Assembly: GCA_903934875.1 (NCBI GenBank)
Contig: CAIZPP010000101.1
Coordinates: 1-64,000 of the forward strand
Direction of reading: 5' to 3'
DNA from: an uncultured Methylococcaceae bacterium
GTDB lineage: Bacteria > Pseudomonadota > Gammaproteobacteria > Methylococcales > Methylococcaceae
Length of the DNA stretch: 64,000 nucleotides
Under the pieces are notes generated by a model. The model made no database searches. It was not told where the DNA came from and saw nothing but the letters and a program-made list of their open reading frames with translations. The translations under genes were made by a program, and so were the position numbers. This document shows, piece after piece, positions 16,215-23,348 of the stretch. Within the stretch, counting starts at the first letter, position 1. Every line of letters starts with the position of its first letter.

Positions 16215-16823
16215 ATGGTTTTCGATGACCGATTGAGGGCGCGCATTGCCTTGGAAGCTGCCCGCATCATGGCGGAAGAAGGCATAGAAGAACCCGGCCT
16301 GGCAAAAAAAAAGGCGGTGGCCCGGTTGGGCGTCGCCACCCAGCGCAATTTGCCGCGCCGGGAAGAAATCGAGGCGGCGCTGCTCGAACACCAGCGCCTG
16401 TTCGGCCAATATGACCAGCCGCAACGGCTGGCAAGGCTGCGCAAGCTGGCACTTGAGGCGATGCGGTTTCTGGCCGTATTCTCGCCTGTTTTGGCGGGCA
16501 GTGTTTGGAGCGGAAGCGCGGGGAAGCACAGCCCCATACGCCTGTACCTGTATCCACACGCCCCGGAAGAGGTCATCCGCAAATTATTGGACGCACATAT
16601 TCCCTTTGAAGAAAAATCCCATAGCGTGTCGCGGGATGCGGAAACCCTGGCTGGCCAGCCCGCGTTTCATTTCCATGTGGACGGCGTCCGCGTTGAACTC
16701 CTGTTGCTCCCCCACTCATGGAAAAGCAACAAGCTACACAAGCAAAGCTCGGCGTTGGCAGGGGGAGGGATTAAAGAGTTGGAAAGGTTGATTGGCGCAG
16801 GGGTGGGTTCCAAACCAGCCTAA
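16215..16823 (+). CDS. Conserved hypothetical, possible nucleotidyltransferase fold
   Basis: A 202-residue soluble protein 15 bp after ponA on the same strand. The N-terminus (DRLRARIALEAARIMAEEG) is helical and basic. The middle segment (LALEAMRFLAVFSPVLAGSVWSGSAGKHSPIRLYLYPHAPEEVIRKLL) has the outline of minimal nucleotidyltransferases, in which a GS-type turn and acidic strand follow a helix. The catalytic aspartates are not clearly preserved (SPIRLYL in place of a D-x-D strand). Many proteobacteria have a protein of this type. The exact function is unknown to me. Confidence 0.7.
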   Translation: MVFDDRLRARIALEAARIMAEEGIEEPGLAKKKAVARLGVATQRNLPRREEIEAALLEHQRLFGQYDQPQRLARLRKLALEAMRFLAVFSPVLAGSVWSGSAGKHSPIRLYLYPHAPEEVIRKLLDAHIPFEEKSHSVSRDAETLAGQPAFHFHVDGVRVELLLLPHSWKSNKLHKQSSALAGGGIKELERLIGAGVGSKPA

Positions 16824-16833
16824 AACACCTGAC

Positions 16834-16906
16834 GCGGGTCGGGATTTGTAATCCCGACCCGAACGTTATGTCCACAGACCACAGTTTTGCCGTTGCACAA
16901 AACGTT
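16834..16906 (+). repeat. 73-bp repeat, left inverted copy bordering island
   Basis: Starts with a palindrome (GGGTCGGGATT and AATCCCGACCC) and runs to ACAAAACGTT. It matches 21337-21409 in the opposite orientation, with the first 50 bp essentially identical and a few differences in the rest. A further palindrome (GACGGGATT and AATCCCGTC) follows at about 16911-16931. The two copies enclose the accessory island. Confidence 0.8.
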
Positions 16907-16980
16907 ACGGACGGGATTACAAATCCCGTCAGGCGGAGAGGCGATTTCCAAAAAAGCCGGGGCGGGCGCTGCTTTTTACG

Positions 16981-17040
16981 CCCGACGTTTCGGCGGTTGA
17001 TGCCTATGGCGTTCGGCAAATGCTACGCTGGCGGTTGAAG
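16981..17040 (+). repeat. Island-border repeat, copy a
   Basis: The core is CCCGACGTTTCGGCGGTTGA, followed by a CTATGGCGTTCGGCAAATGC run. Related copies are at 17898-17975, 19021-19090 and 21443-21523. Each copy sits in a gap between modules of the 16.8-22.2 kb island. Confidence 0.7.
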
Positions 17041-17069
17041 CAGGGGTTGTGCAAAGGGCGATTATTGTA

Positions 17070-17879
17070 ATGGGCGACAAAGATATCATTTCCAAGCAGA
17101 TTTTCAAGCGCCTAGTACGGGACTTCGCCACCGTGTTGTTTGGCCTACCCGTCACCGACGTTGAACTTTTGGAGACTTCTCACTTACGCATCGAAGACCG
17201 CCGCGCCGACTTGGTTGCCAAAGTCTGGCTTCCCGATGGACAAGTGTTCATACTGCACACCGAAATCCAGAACGATAACCAGCGTGTCTTCCCTATCCGC
17301 ATGTTGCGCTACCTGACGGATATTCTGCTGGAAAACTTAGGTCTGCCGGTGCGGCAATATCTTGTCTACATAGGCCGGGAACCCTTGCGCATGGCAGACG
17401 GGCTAAATCTGCCGGACTTGTTGGAATACCGCCATAAAATCATTGATATGCACCAAATAGACTGTGCAGACCTGTTGCGGAAAGACTCTCCCGATGCTTG
17501 GGTGCTGGCGGTATTATGTGATTTCCACGAGCGGCAATCCCGCGCCGTCATCCATGAAATCCTAGCCCGACTGATGCAACGTTTCCAAGACCAGCCGTCC
17601 ACATTGCGGGAATATGTGGTCATGCTGGAAATACTGTCCGACAACCGGGACCTGAACTTAGACATACGCGAGGAATTAGACATGTTGGCCATTAACCTTG
17701 AAAAATTGCCGAGTTACCAGATTGGTAAAACAGAAGGTGTCCATGAGCAGTCGCTCACGATTGCGGCCAAACTGTTGGCTGAAGGCAATGAAGCAGACTG
17801 GATTGCCTCGATTACTGGCTTGCCGCAGGCCGAAGTCGAGCGCCTGAAGGTAATGCCGAAGCCCTCAAAATTGGATTAA
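17070..17879 (+). CDS. Rpn-type PD-(D/E)XK nuclease/putative transposase
   Basis: A 269-residue protein of the recombination-promoting nuclease (Rpn) / putative-transposase group. The N-terminus (DIISKQIFKRLVRDFATVLFG) and the core RRADLVAKVWLPDGQVFILHTEIQND fit the PD-(D/E)XK nuclease fold: an acidic residue in RRADL, then E-I-Q. A helical region follows, and a short C-terminal segment (AKLLAEGNEADWIASITGLPQAEVERLK) typical of these proteins. The ATG at 17070 is preferred; a GTG at 17049 would add seven residues. It lies between copies of the island-border repeat, without a visible partner gene. Confidence 0.8.
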   Translation: MGDKDIISKQIFKRLVRDFATVLFGLPVTDVELLETSHLRIEDRRADLVAKVWLPDGQVFILHTEIQNDNQRVFPIRMLRYLTDILLENLGLPVRQYLVYIGREPLRMADGLNLPDLLEYRHKIIDMHQIDCADLLRKDSPDAWVLAVLCDFHERQSRAVIHEILARLMQRFQDQPSTLREYVVMLEILSDNRDLNLDIREELDMLAINLEKLPSYQIGKTEGVHEQSLTIAAKLLAEGNEADWIASITGLPQAEVERLKVMPKPSKLD

Positions 17880-17897
17880 CAGGGTTTGTCAATACAA

Positions 17898-17975
17898 CCC
17901 GACATTTCGGCGGTTGATGATGCCAATGGCGTTTGGTAAATGCTACGCTGTCGATAGTTCGGTGCGGTGATGTCT
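17898..17975 (+). repeat. Island-border repeat, copy b
   Basis: This is the longest copy. It starts CCCGACATTTCGGCGGTTGA and ends GGTGCGGTGATGTCT. It shares its order of blocks with copies at 16981, 19021 and 21443. It separates the Rpn gene from the BrnA-like gene. Confidence 0.75.
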
Positions 17976-18039
17976 ACATGGCACTTGGCATGGTTGGGGC
18001 ATTTATTTATCATGATTTCAGCATGGAGGGCAGAACCCC

Positions 18040-18345
18040 ATGAACGACGAACCTACTGGCAGCGGGTTGGAATCTAACAGCGGCACTGATTGGGAGCGGT
18101 TGCGGTGTATGAGTGATGCTGCAATTCATGCCGCCATAGAGGCCGACCCCGAGGCCATGCCCACGGATGAAGGGTTTTGGAAAAGCGCGGCGGTCGTCTT
18201 GCCGCGCCGTAAAGAAGTTGTCACCATGCGGCTGGACGCTGATGTTTTAGAATGGTTTCGGAAGGATCGCGGTTATCAAACGCGCATCAATGCTATTTTG
18301 CAAGCCTATATGAAGGCACACACGTCGCGACACAACCAAGAATAA
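18040..18345 (+). CDS. BrnA-type antitoxin-like protein, no toxin beside it
   Basis: A 101-residue protein. The C-terminal half (KEVVTMRLDADVLEWFRKDRGYQTRINAILQAYM) matches the ribbon-helix-helix-like core of BrnA/DUF4415 antitoxins. The first half is acidic. BrnA normally follows a brnT toxin gene, but no brnT-like frame is seen in the upstream 160 bp, which instead hold repeat copy b. It may therefore be an orphan or a solitary regulator. A GGAGGG-type purine run at 18023-18028 precedes the ATG. Confidence 0.75.
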   Translation: MNDEPTGSGLESNSGTDWERLRCMSDAAIHAAIEADPEAMPTDEGFWKSAAVVLPRRKEVVTMRLDADVLEWFRKDRGYQTRINAILQAYMKAHTSRHNQE

Positions 18346-18535
18346 CCCGACATTGGGTTCACAAATTGCGAAACGCCGCCCAAGTTTGATTATTAGCAAT
18401 AATCGTGCATCTGATACAGCCACTATCGTTCCGACTACCTCAAACATCGAACATGTTTACCCTTTCGAGGTTTTTCTGGCGGCAGGTGACAGTGGCTTGC
18501 CCAAACCATCCAAAGCTATAACTTAGGAGTGCAGC

Positions 18536-18784
18536 ATGGCTGCTTTAAACATTACCGTTCCCGATTCATCACTCTCTGCTTTGCGGCGTTCGCCCACCGA
18601 ATTTGTTCGTGAAATGAAGCTCGCGGCTGCGATGCATTGGTACCAGCAAGGAACTATGTCGCAAGAGCGGGCAGCCGAATTGGCAGGATACAACCGGCGT
18701 GATTTCATCCGTGCCTTGGCGCGTGAAAACATGGATGTGTTTGTTGTGGACGATGAAAGTTTGGCGCGGGAGAATCTTCAGTGA
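18536..18784 (+). CDS. UPF0175-family antitoxin-like protein
   Basis: An 82-residue protein with the UPF0175 pattern: an N-terminal beta strand (ALNITVPDS), then FVREMKLAAAMHWYQQGTMSQERAAELAGYNRRDFIRAL, a helix-turn-helix-like stretch that ends in a short acidic tail. Members usually pair with a DUF3368 (PIN-like) toxin encoded just downstream. Here the stop overlaps the GTG of the next frame (GTGA), which is only part of a DUF3368 gene. A GGAG run lies 10 bp upstream of the ATG. Confidence 0.85.
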   Translation: MAALNITVPDSSLSALRRSPTEFVREMKLAAAMHWYQQGTMSQERAAELAGYNRRDFIRALARENMDVFVVDDESLARENLQ

Positions 18785-19053
18785 TTGCCCTCGCGCGATC
18801 ATTGCCGGGAAGCATGGCGGTTATCGACGATTTGGCGGGACGGCGTTGTGCGGAGGCTCTGGGTTTGCCATTGCGGGGAACGGTGGGGCTGGTTCTTGCG
18901 GCAAAGCGTGTAGGGCGTATCCAGGCTGCACGACCTATTTTGGAACAGTTGCGGGATCACGGCATGTATTTATCGGATGCAGTCTTGAATCGGTCGCTCA
19001 GATGGGTGGGGAGTAGGCCATTTGACGGTTGGAATGCCAATGGCATTGGGTGA
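18781..19053 (+). pseudogene. Truncated DUF3368 PIN-like toxin
   Basis: This 90-residue frame contains only the C-terminal half of a DUF3368 protein: AVIDDLAGRRCAEALGLPLRGTVGLVLAAKRVGRI, followed by the usual helical tail. Complete family members have about 150-170 residues, and their N-terminal half carries the first acidic residues of the PIN active site. That half is absent, and the frame begins directly at the overlap with the UPF0175 gene. The C-terminus runs into repeat copy c. The toxin is probably inactive. Confidence 0.7.
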
Positions 19054-19090
19054 GCGTTACGGTGCCGATGGTTTGGTGCTTTGATGTCGG
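19021..19090 (+). repeat. Island-border repeat, copy c
   Basis: A diverged copy with the blocks GGAATGCCAATGGCATTGGG and GGTGCCGATGGTTTGGTGCT. It overlaps the end of the truncated DUF3368 frame and precedes the AT-rich cassette. Confidence 0.6.
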
Positions 19091-19242
19091 GCAACGATGA
19101 AGCAGGTTGCTCGACCTACAAGGCTTATAAAATTGAGCCTCTCAAGATATTTGCCCCGATACGCTATACTTGATTGAATTATGCTTTCTCTTGTTTAAAT
19201 GAAGATATACGCCTACCTGATAGCTCAATGTCGAGACTAAAA

Positions 19243-19587
19243 ATGCTAACCATAACACCAGCACAATTCAAAAATATGCAGCAAGCGCAACTTCAAGGTT
19301 TTGTCGCTACTATGAATGGGCATCTTGAACGTTTCTATCCTGATAAGTGCATGTCTGTAGGCTCCAAAGTTGATAATATCATCCATATGGGAATCAACAA
19401 AGCATCTGGCTATGGTATTAATACTCAAGCCGATGTCTGTCTTTTTATTACTTTGATGTTTGAGTTTGGTCTAAATTTTGACACCGACTCACGCTTACCT
19501 TGGGTCAAGGCCATTTTGCTTGACTCTTTTCCAGGCAAAATGCCTAGACTCTACCGCATGGCTATTTATTATGTCGAATACCACTAA
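19243..19587 (+). CDS. Small soluble protein, first gene of unknown cassette
   Basis: A 114-residue protein starting MLTITPAQFKNMQQAQLQGF. It is predicted helical, with a conserved-looking centre (GINKASGYGINTQADVCLFITLMFEFGLNFDTDSRLPWVKAIL). I have seen this pattern in small proteins encoded near type VI secretion or phage-tail accessory genes, but no known domain name is certain. I chose the ATG at 19243; the frame could begin at 19228 or at a TTG at 19174. It overlaps the next gene by 17 bp. The DNA is clearly more AT-rich than the flanking housekeeping genes. Confidence 0.6.
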   Translation: MLTITPAQFKNMQQAQLQGFVATMNGHLERFYPDKCMSVGSKVDNIIHMGINKASGYGINTQADVCLFITLMFEFGLNFDTDSRLPWVKAILLDSFPGKMPRLYRMAIYYVEYH

Positions 19588-20443
19588 TGGAGCGAACGCC
19601 TGTGTTGACCGCCTGAATAGTGCTGGACTTGCAGCTAAAAAGTTTCCAGATAGTAAGGTGGGGGAGATTGTTGCCACTTGCCCCTTATATAATTGTCAAC
19701 AATTATGGGATCAGGTAAATAAAGAAACCAAAGATATAGTAGATACATCCGACCCTTTGCAGCGCAATACCAAAATTACCTCAGCTTACGCCAAACTTAA
19801 TCAGGAAAATCCTGAAAAAATGCAATGGGCAGGATTGGCTGCGATTGTTTCACGTCAAGCAGGGTGCGCTATGCAGGTTGCAGACAACGCTAACATTGTT
19901 GCAAAAATAACGGGGTATCCTCAAGATGCTCATGATGCGCTAGTCGATGGCAACAAAGCTATTTTTTCCGACATTTACCCACCGCTCAGATTCTATCAGA
20001 TCAATGGACTGGAAAAACTCAAGCAGTGTCCATCAACAGATGCTAAAGGAGATAAAAGATATTCTCAGCAAATCTTACCAGCCCTTGAGCTTATTGACAC
20101 AGGCGACCCAGAATTTGTACGGCTAGGGTCAGATAAAATAGCGGAGTATGAACAGAAAGATATTATTCAGGATAAAGTCTACAGTGTAGAGAAATACAAA
20201 AAAGCTTTGAAGTCCAACGAGGACTATGAGAAGCACTGGTATGGTCGGTTAGGTGGTGCCCAAAAGGCAGAAATCCCCTTATCAGCGGACTGCGGAGCAA
20301 AACCCACTATTCCACTTGATGGCTCGATATTGAAGGCAGAGGTACGAGTGAAATACTACAACACACTGATGGATGGTTTTTTGAAAAAAACACCCTCTGA
20401 GCTGACTGGAATCATGAACAAAGCCTCGACACCTTGGCCATGA
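19571..20443 (+). CDS. DUF2515-like protein, second gene of cassette
   Basis: A 290-residue soluble protein. The segment NPEKMQWAGLAAIVSRQAGCAMQ (near residue 80) resembles the core of DUF2515 (YppC-like) proteins, in which an H/Q-W-A-x-L-A and V-S-R-x-A-G pattern is conserved. This assignment is from memory. The N-terminus (ATCPLYNCQQLWDQVNKET) and the rest are unfamiliar. No signal peptide or membrane span is visible. Its start lies within the first gene of the cassette, and its stop overlaps the start of the third gene (ATGA), so the three are translationally coupled. The activity is unknown. Confidence 0.6.
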   Translation: MSNTTNGANACVDRLNSAGLAAKKFPDSKVGEIVATCPLYNCQQLWDQVNKETKDIVDTSDPLQRNTKITSAYAKLNQENPEKMQWAGLAAIVSRQAGCAMQVADNANIVAKITGYPQDAHDALVDGNKAIFSDIYPPLRFYQINGLEKLKQCPSTDAKGDKRYSQQILPALELIDTGDPEFVRLGSDKIAEYEQKDIIQDKVYSVEKYKKALKSNEDYEKHWYGRLGGAQKAEIPLSADCGAKPTIPLDGSILKAEVRVKYYNTLMDGFLKKTPSELTGIMNKASTPWP

Positions 20444-21168
20444 AACCCATTTGCAGTTACTTTTTGGCAAGTGCTGGCGTTTTGCTTATTGCGTTAGCCA
20501 TTTATTTATTTTTCAGGAATGAAGCTATTGATATGAACAAAATTCCCACACTCAAGCTAACGCTGGGGCAGAATATTTTCGTGATACTGCGCGATAACCA
20601 TTATGACCACGATATAAGCCGTCATGATGATAACACGCCAGTGATTATCGAAAGCCCCGTACAACTGGATTTTGCCGAGCCAAATATTGGCTTCAAGCTA
20701 CCCCCAACGCGCTATTTGTGGCTCACTCAATATGCTGGGATTGTGACTAGTCTGAGCACTTCGCCGCAGTTGGAGTACTGGAATCTCGAAAAAGCCCATG
20801 AATTTGCAACTCAGATGATGAATAAGCTTGTTAAGCTAGGCTGGGTTGTTCATCGTGAATATCCGCTTAGCTATGAGGAAGTCAGGGATATGTTTGACAA
20901 GAGCAAAGCCAAAAATGAGAAATTTTGGAAAGACTATGGAGATTACAGTAGCGGGGATATTACTCTGAATATCGACATTAAACAGATTATCCTCCCGGAA
21001 ACTGGCAATAACTTGACTGAGAAAGATGCTATTTTTTTGCTCAATATTCACATCAATAATGAAGAGCTATCTAAACGACAGGGAAAAATTACTTATGGAC
21101 AGCGCAGGAAAGTCAATGGCACAGCCAACGATCCCCTACCGCTATCGTATTGGCACAATGCCCCTTGA
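20440..21168 (+). CDS. Membrane-anchored protein, third gene of cassette
   Basis: A 242-residue protein with an N-terminal hydrophobic segment (about residues 3-24: ICSYFLASAGVLLIALAIYLFF) that serves as an uncleaved anchor or signal sequence. The remainder would lie in the periplasm. The middle part (GIVTSLSTSPQLEYWNLEKAHEFATQMMNKLVKLGW) has the outline of proteins often found as partners or candidate immunity proteins in type VI secretion-associated islands. That comparison is tentative. The ATG at 20440 overlaps the previous stop. A TTG six bases earlier is possible but unlikely. Confidence 0.6.
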   Translation: MKPICSYFLASAGVLLIALAIYLFFRNEAIDMNKIPTLKLTLGQNIFVILRDNHYDHDISRHDDNTPVIIESPVQLDFAEPNIGFKLPPTRYLWLTQYAGIVTSLSTSPQLEYWNLEKAHEFATQMMNKLVKLGWVVHREYPLSYEEVRDMFDKSKAKNEKFWKDYGDYSSGDITLNIDIKQIILPETGNNLTEKDAIFLLNIHINNEELSKRQGKITYGQRRKVNGTANDPLPLSYWHNAP

Positions 21169-21336
21169 TGCCACCCCATTCCCCACAACTCCGTTAGATG
21201 CGGTAAAGTATTAAATTTTTGCTCGTTCCCAAGCTCCAGCTTGGGAATGCGGTATCAGAAGCTCCTGCTTCCTGAGACCCGACAAGTTAGAGCTTGTAAG
21301 GTAAGGGTTCCCAAGCTGGAGCTTGGGAACCAGCGG

Positions 21337-21409
21337 AACGTTTTGTGCCACGGCAGGACTGTGGTCTGTGGACATAACGTTCGGGTCGGGATTACAAATC
21401 CCGACCCGC
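21337..21409 (-). repeat. 73-bp repeat, right inverted copy bordering island
   Basis: The reverse complement matches 16834-16906, including the GGGTCGGGATT palindrome and the ATGTCCACAGACCACAG run. Its opposite orientation to the first copy means that 16.8-21.4 kb is enclosed by inverted repeats. Confidence 0.8.
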
Positions 21410-21442
21410 ATCAGTCCGGTCGGGCGCGTCTCTTTGCGTTGC

Positions 21443-21523
21443 GCCCGACACTATAGCGGTTGGTTATGCCAATGACATTGGGTAAATACCACGGTGTCGA
21501 TGATTCGGTGCTGTAGTTTGTCT
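21443..21523 (+). repeat. Island-border repeat, copy d
   Basis: The block order CCCGACACTATAGCGGTTGG, ATGCCAATGACATTGGGTAA and GATTCGGTGCTGTAGTTTGT corresponds to copies a to c. It precedes the PIN toxin module. Confidence 0.7.
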
Positions 21524-21605
21524 ACAGGATGACAAATTTGAGAGAATTATTTTTCTTTTTAATTACAATGTTTTTATGTCCAAACAAATTAAACGAGACA
21601 ATACT

Positions 21606-21791
21606 ATGCAAACACTAGATTTAGATAGATTACCCGGCTTTGCTCAAAACGAATTATGTGATTTTTATCAGTTCCTATTGCAGAAATATACAGTGCAATC
21701 ACCGCCCAAACAAGAGGCAAATGGCCCACTCGCACCCCGCTTAGTGAAACCGTTTGAGCCGCTATCTCGCGAAGAAGTCTATGAGCGATAA
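21606..21791 (+). CDS. Antitoxin of PIN module (DUF2281-like)
   Basis: A 61-residue acidic/Pro-rich protein (MQTLDLDRLPGFAQNELCDFYQFLLQKY, then KPFEPLSREEVYER). The small size, the helical N-terminus, the trailing positively charged tail and the overlap with a PIN-domain gene fit a VapB/DUF2281-like antitoxin. The ATG at 21606, which has a GAGAC purine run upstream, is preferred to the one at 21576. Confidence 0.7.
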   Translation: MQTLDLDRLPGFAQNELCDFYQFLLQKYTVQSPPKQEANGPLAPRLVKPFEPLSREEVYER

Positions 21792-22203
21792 GTTTTTTGT
21801 TGATTCCAATATTTGGCTGTATGCTTTCATGGATACCACTTCAAGCAAGCAGGAGAAAGCCATGCAACTCATTGATAATAATGATATAGTGTTGAGTACG
21901 CAGGTCGTCAACGAGGTTTGTGCCAATCTCCTGCGCAAAGCCAGCTACACCGAACCTGAGATACAGCAAACCATTGAAAATTTTCAGGCTAGGTATTCTA
22001 TTTTCATTGTGACAACAGATATTATCCGACAGGCTTCTGTGCTGCGAACCTCATACCGTTTGTCATATTGGGACAGCGTTGTCATCGCCACTGCGATGAG
22101 TGCGAAATGCACTATCGTTTATTCAGAGGATATGCAAAATGGGCAACGCATTGACAACTTGTTGACTATAAAAAATCCTTTTATTGGATGTAGTGGCACA
22201 TAG
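21781..22203 (+). CDS. PIN-domain toxin (VapC-like)
   Basis: A 140-residue protein with PIN fold features. The first acidic residue is in KFFVDSNIWLYAF. A central acidic residue lies in STQVVNEVCANLL, and the third is in YWDSVVIATAMSAKCTIVYSEDMQNGQ. PIN toxins are ribonucleases that cut tRNA or rRNA. The start overlaps the antitoxin gene by 11 bp, the usual toxin-antitoxin arrangement. All key acidic positions are kept, so it may be active. Confidence 0.88.
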   Translation: MSDKFFVDSNIWLYAFMDTTSSKQEKAMQLIDNNDIVLSTQVVNEVCANLLRKASYTEPEIQQTIENFQARYSIFIVTTDIIRQASVLRTSYRLSYWDSVVIATAMSAKCTIVYSEDMQNGQRIDNLLTIKNPFIGCSGT

Positions 22204-22280
22204 GCCGTCCGATGTTGAAAACACTGTCAGTGCGGGTTTGGAGCCTACCCCTAAGAATTCATTATCCCTTGTGAAAATCA

Positions 22281-23348
22281 ATGATAACACTTAAAAACGA
22301 TTGTTTTATCCGCGCCCTGCTTAGACAACCCGTGGAGCGCACACCCGTCTGGATGATGCGCCAGGCTGGGCGCTACCTGCCCGAATATCGGCGCGTCCGC
22401 GAACAGGCCGGGAGTTTCATGAATCTGTGCACCAACCCGGAACTGGCCTGCGAAGTCACCCTCCAACCCTTGGACCGTTTCCGCCTGGATGCCGCCATCC
22501 TGTTTTCCGATATTCTGACCATCCCCGATGCGATGGGATTGGGACTGCATTTTGTCGAAGGGGAAGGCCCCCGTTTCAGCCGCCCCATCCAGACCGAGGC
22601 GGATATCCGCACGCTGGCAGTGCCCGACCCGGAAGAAAGCCTAGGCTATGTGACGGATGCGGTGCGCCTGATTCAGCGGGAATTGCAAGGCAGGGTGCCG
22701 CTCATAGGGTTTTCCGGCAGCCCTTGGACACTCGCCACTTACATGGTTGAAGGCGGAAGCAGCAAAGATTTCCGTAAGGTGAAGGCCATGCTTTATGACC
22801 GGCCTGAGCTGTTGCATGAACTGCTGGACAAGCTAGCCGATGCCGTCGCCGCCTACCTCAACGCCCAAATCAAAGCCGGGGTCAATGCTGTCATGCTGTT
22901 CGACACCTGGGGCGGTTCCCTGTCCACCGGGCACTACCGGGATTTTTCTCTAGCCTACTCCAAGCGCATCTTCGACCAACTCCGGATCAAGCAAGGCGAC
23001 CGGACGATTCCGGCCATACTGTTCACCAAGGGCGGCGGTTTGTGGCTGGAAGCGATGGCGGAAACAGGCTACCACGCCCTAGGTCTGGATTGGCAGACCC
23101 CTATCGCCGATGCGCGTAGGCGCGTCGGCGGCAAAGTGGCGCTGCAGGGCAATCTGGACCCGGTGGCCTTGTATGCCTCGCCGGAGTCCATACGGAGCGA
23201 AGTAAAAAAGATATTGGCCGATTTTGGCCAGGGTTCCGGCCATGTGTTTAATTTGGGGCACGGCGTACACCCGGACATACAGCCCGAACATGTTGGCGCG
23301 ATGATCGAAGCAGTGCATGAGTTCAGCCCGGAGTTCCACCCGCTTTAG
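22281..23348 (+). CDS. hemE: Uroporphyrinogen decarboxylase
   Basis: A 355-residue heme-pathway enzyme that converts uroporphyrinogen III to coproporphyrinogen III in the cytoplasm. The N-terminal signature [16 protein letters not shown] is near residue 23. The second signature, [17 protein letters not shown], is near residue 150. [10 protein letters not shown] and [10 protein letters not shown] also fit. Length is normal. It stands alone between the PIN module and the convergent glgA gene. Confidence 0.98.

Follow-up and report, generated by a model that had tools for sequence, protein, structure and literature searches.

A putative orphan type VI secretion cassette built around a DUF2515 protein in an uncultured Methylococcaceae bacterium

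Three overlapping genes in a 64,000-nucleotide stretch of DNA from an uncultured Methylococcaceae bacterium (the whole stretch is called the window here) very probably form an orphan adaptor-effector-immunity cassette of the type VI secretion system (T6SS), whose toxin would be delivered in trans and act in the periplasm of the target cell. We call the three genes and their products P1, P2 and P3, in the order of transcription. An earlier note, made from the letters of the sequence, had seen in the trio a vague likeness to the effector, accessory and immunity sets that lie near type VI genes. This likeness gained substance, as relatives of the DUF2515 protein P2 were found in T6SS loci, P3-like genes were found as their partners, and P1 was found to resemble a domain of T6SS adaptors.

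The cassette and its islet

The P1 gene (19243..19587, + strand, ATG to TAA) encodes 114 amino acids, which appear to be a stand-alone C-terminal domain of DUF4123-type T6SS adaptors and which we propose to be a co-adaptor or effector loader. The P2 gene (19571..20443, + strand, ATG to TGA) encodes a DUF2515 (PF10720) protein of 290 amino acids, a proposed periplasm-acting T6SS antibacterial toxin, and the P3 gene (20440..21168, + strand, ATG to TGA) encodes a proposed membrane-anchored immunity protein of 242 amino acids with a periplasmic domain. All three open reading frames (ORFs) are intact. The overlaps of 17 bp between P1 and P2 (19571-19587) and of 4 bp between P2 and P3 (20440-20443, ATGA) were read from the ORF coordinates and agree with the three-gene arrangement described in the earlier note. 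We placed the start of P1 at the ATG at 19243 and not at the upstream TTG at 19174, because the relatives of P1 also begin with "MLTI". Since relatives of P1, P2 and P3 were all found elsewhere, the three are true genes and not chance ORFs.

The cassette was also said to be AT-rich, and its GC content is indeed 42.4% vs 53.2% for the window. No stretch of the window is richer in AT: among 621 segments of the same size, 0.3% had a GC content as low, and each of the lowest overlaps the cassette. The third-codon GC of the cassette genes is 0.39-0.46 vs 0.70 for hemE and 0.62 for the PBP1A gene.

The cassette arrived within a small islet of ~5.4 kb that is specific to the species (16824..22280, unstranded) and lies between a gene for a 202-aa protein (16215-16823) and hemE (22281-23348). 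The 202-aa gene directly adjoins hemE in 6/6 other species of the genus searched, and nucleotide alignments with six sister species stop at ~16.8 kb and restart at ~22.23-22.29 kb. Because the flanking genes are adjacent in the six sister species, the ~5.4 kb between them is specific to this one. The islet contains an Rpn-type gene, BrnA antitoxin, UPF0175-DUF3368, the cassette and a PIN-toxin pair, and dispersed repeats lie in the gaps; the toxin-antitoxin genes and repeats around the cassette are therefore as the earlier note had described them. The Rpn-type gene lies in the left part of the islet (17049-17879) and matches TIGR01784 below the cut-off.

A 55-bp dispersed repeat of family D1 is found on the left of the cassette (19034..19088, + strand; 0 expected by chance), and the repeat search placed a copy of the same family on its right (21466..21520, + strand). 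Copies of this repeat stand between the islet modules, at 17000, 17920, 19034 and 21466 of the window; in the genome, BLAST gave 6 matches vs 1 by the strict pattern. The repeat could be a site of recombination or else belong to the intergenic repeats of the genus. Palindromic intergenic repeats were also observed at 16829-16935 and 21221-21414 (GTTCCCAAGCTCCAGCTTGGGAA; CGGGTCGGGATTTGTAATCCCGACCCG), and an 81-nt inverted pair of 94% identity (16829-16909 / 21334-21414) encloses most of the islet.

The location among toxin-antitoxin genes and the same dispersed repeats might suggest that the cassette is of the same sort as its BrnA, UPF0175-DUF3368 and PIN-toxin neighbours, namely a toxin-antitoxin or genome-stabilising element whose proteins are not secreted. 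We regard this as very improbable, because P3 looks exported and anchored, unlike a cytoplasmic antitoxin, and because the relatives lie in T6SS loci and P1 resembles an adaptor domain. None of P1-P3 matched a toxin-antitoxin family in Pfam or NCBIfam, and a type II toxin-antitoxin identity was rejected on the topology of P3 together with the T6SS context. An accessory islet, a high AT content and a small operon would also suit a co-expressed three-protein anti-phage defence system, as the earlier note had suggested. This suggestion found no support and is to our mind the least probable of the readings; the PADLOC models gave no match for P1, P2 or P3, on which ground the identity was rejected, and the relatives found lie in T6SS contexts, none of them in a defence context.

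The DUF2515 protein and its partner P3

The earlier reading of the second protein as DUF2515-like was right: P2 matches PF10720 with E 2e-23 and 83.6 bits vs the Pfam cut-off of 24.3, and is by that cut-off a clear member of the family, which is here coupled to T6SS loci and to an immunity gene. Homologues are few overall. A survey of 299 genomes from across the phylum detected PF10720 in 1 other genome, P2 was absent from 60/60 relatives searched, and no relative of P2 was found in viral contigs. DUF2515 was present in Bacillus subtilis, in a protein that we take to be YppC (control search). Bacillus subtilis has no T6SS, and the domain is therefore not specific to T6SS.

Besides the window, 7/7 loci with DUF2515 adjoin a gene for a T6SS adaptor (DUF4123 or DUF2169) and vgrG and/or PAAR. 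On plasmid pB19.1.4b of Agrobacterium vaccinii the order is vgrG, DUF4123, DUF2515 and a P3-like gene, and in Allorhizobium taibaishanense it is DUF4123, DUF2515, two P3-like genes and PAAR. In Mesorhizobium, vgrG and DUF2169 are followed by a gene in which the proposed toxin domain is fused to a T6SS structural domain (Tox-PAAR-like PF13665 with DUF2515), and then by a P3-like gene and Rhs. The four remaining loci, from the same family as Mesorhizobium (G543, G559, G641 and G524), have DUF4123 and vgrG and/or PAAR beside DUF2515 and a P3-like gene; part of their gene names were assigned by eye from the translations, and in G641 and G524 the assembly has an interrupted DUF2515 frame. Both DUF4123 and DUF2169 are T6SS adaptors, and DUF2169 serves DUF4150-type PAAR domains (PMC8546570, PMC13373197). 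Judging from this context, DUF2515 is a predicted T6SS effector domain. The earlier note had held that the genes not co-occurring elsewhere, or one of them being a fragment of a well-known system, would speak against its proposal. Neither objection was borne out: the P2-P3 pair is present together in seven other loci, five of which have a P1-like domain in the adjacent adaptor.

Two further loci were observed. In another Rhizobiales contig (L008, 4922-8609), the front of DUF2515 has given way to a transposase-like gene, and the P3-like and DUF4123-type genes remain; this is probably an effector remnant with its immunity gene. In Flavobacterium (L010, 30-8621), a 2863-aa SpvB/Rhs-like protein carries two short DUF2515 motifs at its C-terminus and is followed by a membrane-anchored protein. 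It came up in a search for relatives of P2, and a profile built without it gave only E 0.35 with the two short motifs, so that it is at most a possible relative.

An alignment of P2 with its proteobacterial relatives showed four invariant cysteines (C42, C99, C153 and C241) and a set of invariant polar residues (Q96, N128, E194-Q195, Y204 and R259), and the P2 of the window retains every one of them. The four cysteines would suit folding in an oxidising compartment. The predicted model of P2 is all-helical and of moderate confidence (pLDDT 74, pTM 0.76; four-row alignment). A fold search with it gave no match at E<=0.001, neither in the PDB nor among viral folds. Long-helix pore-formers (AhlC, ClyA) appeared at E 0.5-2 with a probability <0.1 and were not taken as evidence. 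Searching the sequences of P1, P2 and P3 against solved structures yielded no useful match; P3 drew Gla/factor X at E>1, which was discarded as chance.

Every other DUF2515 locus has a relative of P3 immediately downstream of the DUF2515 gene. These relatives share only 20-25% identity with P3, whose C-terminus is ~35-50 residues short of their ends. Consistent with the membrane anchor proposed earlier, P3 has one N-terminal hydrophobic segment (residues 7-25, KD 2.32) with positive charge ahead of it, and 8 of 2000 shuffled sequences were equally hydrophobic. The AlphaFold model (pLDDT 75) consists of a helix at residues 4-26 and an alpha/beta domain, for which the fold search found no solved counterpart at E<=0.001. 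The relatives of P3 have an N-terminus of the exported, anchored type, and one of them (L056) begins with a twin-arginine-like SNRRKF motif. P3 is thus probably a membrane-anchored immunity protein whose domain lies in the periplasm. Because an exported immunity protein is expected to meet its toxin there, P2 would act in the periplasm, and the location of its action in turn suggests an envelope substrate. The invariant residues Q96, N128, E194-Q195, Y204 and R259 make an enzyme plausible. Our leading guess, to which we would give roughly even chances, is an enzyme that attacks peptidoglycan or a different envelope component; disruption of the membrane is a second and distinctly more doubtful guess.

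P1 and the orphan trios of the host genome

P1 matched nothing in Pfam, NCBIfam or PADLOC, and to our knowledge no family has been published for it. The rhizobial DUF4123 proteins that stand beside DUF2515 bear an extra C-terminal domain of ~120 aa, and in 5/7 of the other loci the adaptor beside the P2-P3 pair has such a P1-like C-terminal domain. When the P1 family was aligned with these C-termini, hhalign gave a probability of 95.8% (E 6.5e-9), vs 0.1-1.3% for the controls (the DUF4123 core, effectors and immunity proteins). P1 is therefore identified, by profile comparison, as a homologue of the C-terminal domain of some DUF4123 adaptors that has become detached and lacks the DUF4123 core (PF13503).

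A profile search with P1 matched 8/369 genomes of the class, the window's genome included. Three other genomes have between them four loci in which the match falls on the C-terminal end of a DUF4123 protein, and in two of these loci vgrG lies just upstream. Stand-alone copies of P1 were found directly upstream of genes for a Pesticin-type lysozyme, Amidase_2, a WHH/colicin DNase and Rhs proteins, and also ahead of an M90-like metalloprotease (below the cut-off), a peptidoglycan-binding protein and several proteins without a named family; DUF4123 and vgrG often stand in front of such loci. That P1 and DUF4123 are fused in some proteins and split in others suggests a joint function. P1-headed loci in sister species (L028, L029, L030 and L031) have middle proteins without a Pfam match, which may be regarded as further effector candidates.

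As the earlier note had stated, no vgrG, PAAR or hcp gene is present near the cassette; neither these nor adaptor genes were found among the ORFs of 16-25 kb in the window, and the vgrG, DUF4123 and TssC genes of the genome lie on other contigs only. A TssC family match with neighbouring core-type genes was found on contig C188 of the same genome (G000), vgrG on C40 (with a PAAR-TNT protein) and on C186, and DUF4123 genes on C186. From this gene content, the host could deliver P2 via a T6SS.

The same genome holds at least three intact P1-headed trios. One, at C174 (L027, 4746-6660), consists of a P1-like gene, a Pesticin-type lysozyme (PF16754) and a partner with a signal-peptide-like N-terminus, and adjoins dnaA-dnaN. 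Another, at C208 (L095, 1222-3261), consists of a P1-like gene, a 369-aa protein without a named family and a lipoprotein-like partner. With such trios at C174 and C208 as well, P1-effector-immunity units that lack vgrG are no rarity in this organism. The C174 trio shares with the window trio the gene order, the exported-looking partner and the lack of vgrG, and differs from it in that its toxin is a recognised lysozyme-type domain where the window trio has DUF2515.

It might still be that the cassette is a relic, an effector-immunity pair that recombined in and was kept mainly for its immunity gene, with P2 no longer delivered since vgrG and the adaptor are missing. The lack of an adjacent vgrG or DUF4123 gene, the accessory islet shared with toxin-antitoxin genes, and the P1 copies elsewhere in the genome, one of which is clearly decayed (C104) and another without a clean ORF (C143), all point this way. 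Against it, the three ORFs are intact with their overlaps preserved, P2 retains all invariant residues, and orphan trios are common in the genus. We therefore consider a relic unlikely, and prefer a working cassette delivered in trans.

Proposed working and comparison with known systems

We infer that P1 would bind P2 and help to load it onto a VgrG or PAAR spike; the spike, and the DUF4123 adaptor with which P1 would act, would be encoded at other places in the genome. The T6SS would then inject P2 into neighbouring Gram-negative cells, where the protein would fold with disulfides in the periplasm and damage the envelope. In the producer, P3 would sit anchored in the inner membrane and neutralise, with its periplasmic domain, the P2 that arrives from sister cells. 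Delivery in trans is assumed because no vgrG, PAAR or DUF4123 gene adjoins the copy in the window. The absence of an adjoining vgrG, PAAR or adaptor gene is common for T6SS cargo effectors, and adjacency to such genes does not define T6SS effectors as a whole.

T6SS effector-immunity pairs are of a known kind. The closest likeness is to the vgrG-tap-effector-immunity islands, such as the accessory vgrG loci of Agrobacterium (PMC8546570), in which the effector and then the immunity gene follow the adaptor as in our cassette, and one such locus itself contains DUF2515. In contrast to these islands, the cassette of the window has no vgrG, PAAR or full-length adaptor and holds only the detached adaptor-like domain. 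In TecT/co-TecT of P. aeruginosa, as described in PMC6560169 (citing Burkinshaw 2018), delivery of one effector involves a co-adaptor alongside the DUF4123 adaptor. By that description P1 may be likened to co-TecT as an extra protein acting with a DUF4123 adaptor, and differs in that no DUF4123 gene adjoins the window cassette.

The name "DUF2515" occurs in no paper of the open literature searched, a search outside of which most subscription papers lie, and the papers that came up under yppC seemed, from titles and abstracts, to have no bearing on the family. Within that literature, both a T6SS effector role for DUF2515 and the detachable P1 domain provisionally appear to be undescribed. A bolder reading, which we put forward tentatively and think somewhat less probable than its opposite, combines two points: DUF2515 would be a new class of T6SS toxin that acts in the periplasm and differs from known effectors in fold and activity, and P1 would be a detachable module that makes plug-in trios without vgrG, served in trans by a compatible spike.

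The cassette offers a directly testable role, that of an antibacterial effector, for a Pfam domain of no assigned function. Searches seeded with vgrG, PAAR or DUF4123 overlook orphan effectors, and P1 may serve as a marker gene for effector-immunity pairs that lie far from any vgrG or T6SS locus.
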